A DNA stretch of 64,000 nt from Fluviicola taffensis DSM 16823 (GTDB taxonomy: Bacteria; Bacteroidota; Bacteroidia; Flavobacteriales_D; Crocinitomicaceae), in NCBI RefSeq assembly GCF_000194605.1, contig NC_015321.1, positions 372,001-436,000 on the forward strand, written 5' to 3'. Shown here piece by piece: positions 6,956-8,495 of this stretch (position 1 is its first letter; every line of letters begins with the position of its first letter). The position numbers and the translations under genes were made by a program. The notes under the pieces were generated by a model that searched no databases, was not told the DNA's origin, and saw only the letters and a list, made by a program, of their open reading frames with translations.

Positions 6956-7060
6956 GTTATATCGGATTAATTCACACATTTCATCTTCCATAGATATTGG
7001 GAGTTTTCCAGCTATGGGTTAGAATCATTCATTGGTATTCTCTATCCTAAAAACAGTGCT

Positions 7061-7155
7061 CCAACGTTTGGCGCACAGGCGCAGGTTTTTGAGACCTGTT
7101 TGCTGTATTCTGTTTACTGTTTCAAAACTTGAGCTTGTGCGCTGTTATCGGTTAC
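7061..7155. repeat. attC-like foldback element at one end of a one-gene insertion
   Basis: Two imperfect inverted arms, 7071-7092 and 7122-7142, share GCGCACA/TGTGCGC ends and a TTTTGA inner end. A small internal hairpin (CAGGT 82-86 / ACCTG 94-98) lies between them. Outside the arms are CCAACGTTTGG (7061-7071) and GTTATCGGTTAC (7144-7155). This layout, a folded imperfect palindrome with a conserved AACGTTTGG on one side and GATAACAGCGC (minus strand) on the other, resembles cassette-associated attC-like elements I recall from Bacteroidota genomes. I see no integrase, so the site type is an inference. Confidence 0.45.
7144..7155 (+). repeat. 12-bp inverted repeat, left copy
   Basis: GTTATCGGTTAC is the inverted counterpart (11 of 12) of GTTACCGATAAC at 8141-8152. 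The two copies lie just outside the two ends of the gene at 7160-8137. Confidence 0.6.
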
Positions 7156-7159
7156 TTTT

Positions 7160-8137
7160 TTATTGTTCGTCAGTTCCATCTTTGTAGTCAAATTCTCTGT
7201 TAAACTCTCCATTTTCATGATACCATTTCCATAGTCCAACCCGCTTGTCAGTTTGATATTGTCCTTGCAATTTAAGGTTGCCGTTTTCGTAAAATTCTTT
7301 GTAGTCGCCCTTCTTGCCAGTTGAAGTGCTTTTGTTGTTTATGTAAACGAAACTTGCAATATTTTTAAGTTTTCCGTTGTTAAAATATTCAGAACATTCC
7401 ATTATCATTTCTTTTTCCATTTCTATTTCAATGAATTTATAAGATAATTGTCCACTTACTTTGTCAGAATATTGCTCGTAAATACCTACGTTTTTATTGA
7501 TTGTATTTTTTGACTTGATAAATCCGTTTGAAGCGAACTGAGAAGTTATGTTTTTAGTCAAGTCAAACTCAGTTTTGATAATTCCGTTATCGTAAAAATG
7601 TTGCCAAGTTTTTATTGCAATGCCTTTTCTAAATTGCCCTTTAGCAATAACAATATTTTTAGAATTAGTAAATGTGAACTGTCCTCCAGTTTTGTTTTTA
7701 AAAATGTCTGAAAACTGCTTTAAAATTAATAGTTCGTTATTAGTTGTCGGCTTGTCTGTGATTTGTTTCGACCATTTGTCACAGATACCACCAAAACTAA
7801 AAATCCGTCCGCTACCGTCAGTATAAATGAGATAAGTATTCCCAATTGTCATGTAATTACCTGCACGAAGTGTTACAACATTGGTGTCAACCTTGCCAAA
7901 ATACACAGTAACTATTTCAACAGTTGCAGTACCGTCAATACTGCCATCAGAACTTGATGAGATGATGTGGTCAGGATAAGTAAGTGGTGTAGAAAATGTT
8001 AAAACCTTACAGGTGAATATTGTGCCTGGATTTCCTTGAAACAGCATTTCAGTCAAAGTCCGGTCGTCAATGGCACAGCAAGCCCAAGAACTTTGGTAAA
8101 GTCCAACGAAAAATAATATGGTAAGTACTGTCCTCAT
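7160..8137 (-). CDS. Secreted protein with NTR/TIMP-like head and MORN-variant repeats
   Basis: The product is 325 residues from ATG 8137, which gives a signal peptide (MRTVLTILFFVGLYQSSWA) directly followed by Cys-Cys. A longer frame to 8173 would overlap the neighbouring gene and hide the signal. Residues about 20-125 look like an NTR/TIMP-like domain: an N-terminal Cys just after cleavage, an alternating strand pattern, GNTYLIYTDGSG, and a later Cys in GICDKWSKQ. The rest carries MORN-variant repeats (YxNGxLKxxG, KRVGLWKWYHENGEF), as in YwqK-type proteins. The gene lies within 7144-8152, bounded by an inverted repeat, and so looks like a separately acquired unit. The molecular function is unknown. 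Confidence 0.8.
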   Translation of the reverse strand: MRTVLTILFFVGLYQSSWACCAIDDRTLTEMLFQGNPGTIFTCKVLTFSTPLTYPDHIISSSSDGSIDGTATVEIVTVYFGKVDTNVVTLRAGNYMTIGNTYLIYTDGSGRIFSFGGICDKWSKQITDKPTTNNELLILKQFSDIFKNKTGGQFTFTNSKNIVIAKGQFRKGIAIKTWQHFYDNGIIKTEFDLTKNITSQFASNGFIKSKNTINKNVGIYEQYSDKVSGQLSYKFIEIEMEKEMIMECSEYFNNGKLKNIASFVYINNKSTSTGKKGDYKEFYENGNLKLQGQYQTDKRVGLWKWYHENGEFNREFDYKDGTDEQ

Positions 8138-8140
8138 AAA

Positions 8141-8152
8141 GTTACCGATAAC
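8141..8152 (-). repeat. 12-bp inverted repeat, right copy
   Basis: GTTACCGATAAC here supplies the last codons and stop (Ser-Tyr-Arg-stop) of the minus-strand gene at 8142-8495, as well as the sequence just before ATG 8137. It mirrors the copy at 7144-7155. Confidence 0.6.
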
Positions 8153-8495
8153 TTCTTGATAGTCGTGAGTCATAAATATGAAACGGAAGCATACTTTTAT
8201 CTTTTTCAGTAAATATCCCAGTATACTTCAAAAAAGCTTCCTCAAACGAGCAAATCAGATAACCTCTATCGTTAAAAGAATAGGTTCCAGATAATTTATA
8301 CCGTTCCAAATGCCGCTCATCCATATCATCCATGGGTCTGAAAGCATCAACGACCTTCTTAGTTATTTCTACCATGCCGTTATCGAAAAACTCTAAACAA
8401 TCTCGATATATAATACAAAAAAATATCCCGCCTGCATGTAAGTCCGTATTTGCAATCAATTCGGACACATATTTCTTGTTGTATTGTATCTTCAT
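8142..8495 (-). CDS. Hypothetical 117-residue protein, possibly with altered C-terminus
   Basis: This is a short soluble protein with no signal peptide or membrane helix and no domain I recognise. It starts 14 nt after the alternative GlmU stop, so it may be the last gene of that operon. Its final residues (RSYR) and stop codon are encoded by the right-hand inverted repeat (8141-8152), so the native C-terminus may have been replaced when the neighbouring unit inserted. Comparing its length with homologues would decide this. Confidence 0.65.
   Translation of the reverse strand: MKIQYNKKYVSELIANTDLHAGGIFFCIIYRDCLEFFDNGMVEITKKVVDAFRPMDDMDERHLERYKLSGTYSFNDRGYLICSFEEAFLKYTGIFTEKDKSMLPFHIYDSRLSRSYR

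Follow-up and report, generated by a model that had tools for sequence, protein, structure and literature searches.

The first bases of an integron cassette complement the R′ box of the cassette's own attC site, and in the circular form they make up the other half of that site. For canonical integrons, Loot et al. (as cited in PMC11023631) are said to have described in 2024 a cassette or single attC at a secondary (attG) site without integrase. As for the Xer enzymes, none is known to run a cassette array.

The insertion that distinguishes IntI has been treated as defining and necessary (PMC9668308; PMC7790495), and its helix I2 is credited with making single-strand recombination possible (PMC7790495). 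There is no direct proof of that role, because deleting I2 kills IntI1 (PMC7790495). According to Smyshlyaev et al. 2021 (PMC8138268), an "integron-like" subgroup of tyrosine recombinases does not fully conserve the IntI insertion, and their passages on it report no Bacteroidota cassette arrays. In the stems of canonical attC sites, bulged bases have been described (PMC2727003). And integrons have been considered nearly absent from the Bacteroidetes, with earlier reports of integrases without cassettes and a later one of a complete integron in Salinibacter ruber (PMC9024848).

Anatomy of the cassette

The window is the whole 64-kb stretch of DNA that we analyzed, and coordinates refer to it unless a genome position is given. 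Its minus strand, from 8151 to 7065, reads G^TTATCGGTAAC, one secreted-protein gene, an R′ box GTAACCGATAAC, and a hairpin that closes with CAAACG^TT. We are confident that 7065-8151 represents a solitary integron-like gene cassette, which entered a small gene near its 3′ end and used a secondary G^TT site there. The cassette rule and the comparison with arrays put its ends at the TT of the 5′ G^TT and at the G of the 3′ G^TT, a length of 1087 bp. The first-pass annotation of this DNA had proposed that a gene cassette with an attC-like element was inserted here, and our analysis supports that as by far the best reading.

On the minus strand, the cassette starts as ...GACTATCAAGAAG^TTATCGGTAACTTT-ATG, continues with the gene, and ends as GTAACCGATAAC-A-GCGCACAAGCTCAAG...CTGCGCCTGTGCGC-CAAACG^TTGGAGC... 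The cargo gene (7160-8137, minus strand), which had been placed correctly, is an open reading frame of 325 aa with a predicted signal peptide. Pfam bears out the MORN_2 repeats that had been suggested for its C-terminal tail; the suggested NTR/TIMP-like head was not confirmed by a family model.

Just outside the gene, as was first noticed, GTTATCGGTTAC (7144-7155) and GTTACCGATAAC (8141-8152) are inverted copies of each other at 11/12 positions. Read on the minus strand, the first is the R′ box, whose positions 10-12 read AAC in nearly every member of the family of sites described below, and the second is the cassette 5′ end GTTATCGGTAAC, which complements the cassette's own R′ and would be the R″ half in the circle. 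The inverted repeat that flanks the gene is thus the integron rule itself, since the cassette 5′ end is the other half-site when circular.

The foldback reported next to the left repeat is also there. It forms the body of an attC-like site (7055-7155, minus strand), which is an imperfect hairpin with an unpaired central spacer. The alignment to the family and the mismatch statistics identify its 5′ stem arm (7122-7142) and its 3′ stem arm (7071-7091), both on the minus strand, and also a diagnostic mismatch, in which the A at 7129 opposes a minus-strand C at 7084; on the + strand this pair is a T.G wobble. The 3′ boundary, CG^TT (7063-7066, minus strand), falls where CGTT is conserved in the family, and the bases past the G belong to the target site. 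The cassette therefore has G^TT at both boundaries. When the region 7055-7160 is compared to dinucleotide shuffles, the proposed foldback is stronger than expected on the + strand (z −2.6, 1/200) and not on the minus strand (z −0.86). In the circular form, both strands of the cassette close as a full hairpin, at −23.8 kcal/mol (+ strand) and −15.5 kcal/mol (minus strand).

A family of sites conserved in structure

We used two covariance models of the site. Model R1 was built from ten aligned sites of the array in the same genome, in which the stem shows compensatory changes at 17/18 pairs. Model R2 was built from the sites of other species alone, so that both the window site and the rest of its genome were excluded. 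R1 gives the window site 24.5 bits, and R2 gives it 34.4 bits (E = 6.9e-7 over the window, where E-values of both models are rough because of a short calibration). The runner-up under R2 has 9.5 bits, and we observe this one attC as the sole site in the 64 kb. The statement that no recombinase lies nearby stands for the surroundings of the cassette; the same genome does have a likely recombinase, about 0.69 Mb off around the circle.

The window site retains the R′ AAC, the A.C mismatch (7129/7084), the CAAACG^TT end, and most of the stem. It is about 40 bases below the common 121-base form, with the shortening in the loop part, it has no C at position 2 where one is usual, and it scores well under the array sites.

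Rfam returned no match, a DNA-level search for copies of the foldback in 395 genomes of the phylum found chance or simple-repeat matches only (for instance, a TGCTGTT repeat in the genome G216), and the exact-letter pattern matched the window alone, which indicates a family conserved in structure and not in letters. The expectation that the foldback would recur elsewhere in the genome thus fails for DNA-level copies and holds for at least 45 structural relatives. At that level, 46 places in the genome match R1 at E ≤ 1, beside unrelated genes.

Most stem pairs are standard in a fraction 0.83-1.00 of 112 sites. The pair A27.C112 is an A.C mismatch in 106/110 sites, is never Watson-Crick, and reads G.T on the bottom strand. 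The bulged extrahelical bases that a canonical attC carries in its L arm are missing, and there are symmetric mismatches instead. We infer that the A.C mismatch stands in for the extrahelical bases. The more stable fold is that of the bottom strand in 64 sites and that of the top strand in 29; the bottom-strand preference is a tendency, not a rule.

The array and the recombinase in the same genome

A search for integron integrases identified a tyrosine recombinase of 370 aa in the same genome (G000:C1:4320327-4321439, minus strand). Directly behind it, from 4.320 Mb, lies a cassette array of about 110 kb, and there are scattered clusters and single cassettes besides. The R1 matches fall in this main array (4.21-4.32 Mb), in a cluster at 4.49-4.51 Mb, and, singly or a few together, near 0.16, 0.91, 1.14-1.15, 1.44, 3.06, and 3.44 Mb. 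The units behind the recombinase obey the rule that the 5′ end complements R′, as in GTTATGTGCC...GGCACATAAC, GTTGGTGGC...GCCACCAAC, and GTTACAGGAT...ATCCTGTAAC. Several of the scattered cassettes also keep the 5′-end rule and start at an attI-like flank, for example GCATATATACAA^GTT.

Two side observations concern the arrangement of these cassettes. The second cluster (L268) has two identical copies of the attI-like flank GCCTATATACAA^GTT, near 4.490 and 4.495 Mb, which looks like copying or repeated use. Within the main array, a block of about 10 kb lies between two attC sites (L119:1142-10679, about 4.306-4.316 Mb), with an MmeI-type restriction-modification gene and genes for an AAA_13 ATPase, RhuM, a DEAD helicase, and a T5orf172 protein; it is either defence-like cargo or a later insertion.

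The system across the Bacteroidota

A query with the recombinase found 316 relatives in named genomes, and we analyzed 80 of these loci. They include Flavobacterium, Pedobacter, Cyclobacterium, Schleiferia, Daejeonella, Galbibacter, Mongoliibacter, and many Bacteroidota MAGs. Labels of other groups, such as Azoarcus and Chlorobiaceae, appear on a few of the MAGs, and these may be binning errors.

Model R1 detects 114 sites in the 80 loci: 109 are downstream of the recombinase and on its strand, in 301 kb, 3 are upstream, in 694 kb, and 2 are antisense. A site is present in 32 of the 37 loci that have at least 2.5 kb downstream. In 33/80 loci, the contig ends less than 1.5 kb behind the recombinase, probably an effect of repeat-rich arrays. 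The layout seen in this genome, with an array directly behind a recombinase, recurs in dozens of further species of Bacteroidota.

The cassette rule can also be measured. In 60 consecutive units from other species, a mean of 6.9/9 positions of the cassette 5′ end agree with the R′ of the same cassette, versus 3.4 when the neighbouring cassette is used and 3.1 when pairs are shuffled. In most loci we observe a conserved attI, TATAWAMAA^GTT, with the first cassette starting some 77-105 bp past the end of the recombinase match. An attI thus lies beside the recombinase gene, as it does beside the integrase gene of a canonical integron. When whole genomes are searched (this one and 58 relatives), sites appear in 51/59, and there are arrays in Flavobacterium, Pedobacter, Cyclobacterium, and on the Chryseobacterium plasmid NZ_CP041688.1.

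An IS110 element, a group II intron, and other transposases break up the plasmid array (L251), which brings to mind that canonical attC sites, too, are known to harbour group II introns. A further genome, G017, has a recombinase 44% identical to the one described here (L127:7888-9030) and no recognisable attC site, and this recombinase possibly represents a sister family with another type of site.

The recombinase compared with IntI and Xer

The integron-integrase model TIGR02249 gives the recombinase 197 bits, for a cut-off of 265 that no protein of this genome or of the 58 relatives passes, and the Xer model NF040815 gives it 211 bits, for a cut-off of 220. The spacing between the KKDR and HxLRH motifs is 58-59 residues in this recombinase and in 80/80 relatives, compared with 59-66 in Xer and 100 in IntI. 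Missing in 80/80 is the insertion of about 41 residues with helix I2 that a canonical integron integrase has, and the IntI4 stretch around residues 208-242 is without counterpart in the recombinase.

In the length and motifs of its catalytic domain, the enzyme resembles XerA and XerC-like recombinases (4A8E, 5HXY; NF040815), which are its best matches among solved structures. It differs from them in its N-terminal part, about 95 residues (L119:16155-16439, minus strand) for which Pfam has no match, and which may be what binds the folded site. In the relatives L079 and L081, the N-terminal part is longer and apparently repeated. In a recombinase tree that includes few IntI sequences, the nodes key to placing the family relative to IntI and Xer have supports of 0.23 and 0.17.

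The organization as a whole is like that of a sedentary chromosomal integron such as the Vibrio superintegron: a recombinase gene, an adjacent attI, and a long, mostly co-oriented array, with imperfect-hairpin sites that have R′/R″ boxes, a G^TT boundary, and an asymmetric unpaired central spacer. Unlike in Vibrio, the recombinase is co-directional with the cassettes, it has no I2 insertion of about 41 residues and carries the N-terminal part unmatched in Pfam, and the sites have the A.C mismatch and no bulged extrahelical bases. The system is organized like an integron, yet its recombinase, which has no I2, is not an IntI.

These observations also bear on whether the window holds a canonical cassette that came from elsewhere and was moved by a standard IntI enzyme. 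The R′/R″ boxes, the G^TT boundary, and the 5′ end complementing R′ are rules that both systems share, and they would suit such an origin. However, neither this genome nor any of the 58 relatives encodes a protein above the integron-integrase cut-off, the A.C mismatch is conserved where an attC has bulged bases (PMC2727003), and in the class 1 integrase contigs that we scanned, whose flanks may hold no attC, the best R2 score is an unconvincing 8.4 bits. We regard a canonical origin as improbable.

The insertion site

We return to the solitary integron-like cassette and its surroundings. Upstream of it on the minus strand is an orphan gene of 117 aa (8142-8495), whose 3′ end has been replaced by the insertion. 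Its stop codon, as pointed out before, lies within the right repeat, which is to say inside the cassette 5′ end, and a stop codon supplied in this way is expected of an insertion. With the flanks joined in silico, the frame of the neighbour runs 12 codons more, ...SRLSRS-WSTVFRIENTNE, and then stops. The target side before G^TT, ...GACTATCAAGAA (8153-8170, minus strand), bears a weak likeness to the attI consensus TATAWAMAA, and by attI score this flank is in the top 1.4% of the GTT sites of the window. An attI-like target flank and a disrupted neighbour frame fit insertion at a secondary site, as in canonical integrons. Like an attG insertion, the window holds one chromosomal cassette, at a G^TT that lies outside the array; unlike it, the system has a recombinase family other than IntI, and the target is weakly attI-like.

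Eleven stretches of DNA from congeners, each surrounding the orthologous NTP-transferase gene, contain neither the cargo gene, nor the 117-aa gene, nor an attC site (the latter searched with R2), and no relative was found that keeps both flanks without the insert. The 117-aa protein has no homologue among 248 other genomes of the order. The cargo head was not found in 394 other genomes of the phylum, a weak homologue of it appears in G724 only, and plasmid and phage collections contain no relatives of the cargo.

Could the hairpin simply be a bidirectional terminator between convergent genes, accompanied by an inverted repeat that arose by chance? The hairpin does lie between convergent genes, with a T run nearby on the + strand. 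But the repeat by itself has little room for chance (an equally good inverted 12-mer pair with the same geometry appears in 6/20,000 random placements in the window), the hairpin matches the family model with its diagnostic mismatch and boxes, and relatives are without gene and site, all of which leaves this explanation very unlikely. Least probable of all is that the gene is enclosed by the terminal inverted repeats of a transposon or MITE-like element. Such an element would account for the flanking repeats but has no transposase, and its repeat letters are not shared genome-wide (32 matches with at most one mismatch vs. 41 for a reversed control), while the other elements share the hairpin structure and the pairing of R′ with the 5′ end instead.

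A putative mechanism and its meaning

For the integron-like cassette of the window, we propose that the recombinase at 4.320 Mb, or a relative of it, would act on the hairpin of a single attC strand. This would probably be the + strand of the window, opposite to that of the gene, where the conserved A.C becomes G.T. Excised cassettes would be circular, with the 5′ end TTATCGGTAAC facing R′ as a restored R″, and the circles would then insert between the G and the TT of a double-stranded target. The usual target would be the attI that directly follows the recombinase gene, and occasionally it would be a secondary site, as in the window.

Taken to the phylum, the proposal that we somewhat favor is that of a Bacteroidota-wide integron, in which an Xer-like recombinase without I2 reads single-strand attC hairpins by means of the A.C/G.T cue. 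It would be a second solution to single-strand cassette recombination, and the solitary cassettes would show its action outside the array. This large Bacteroidota family of gene-capturing "integrons" is apparently undescribed so far; a survey of the open-licence literature, with preprints outside its scope, found no description.

Integron-like attC sites in 51/59 genomes contrast with the reported near-absence of integrons from the Bacteroidetes. The question of I2 becomes directly testable in a natural family that has no I2 but whose attC sites remain structured and covarying. And the family would give us both a new platform for gene capture and the means of finding its cassettes.
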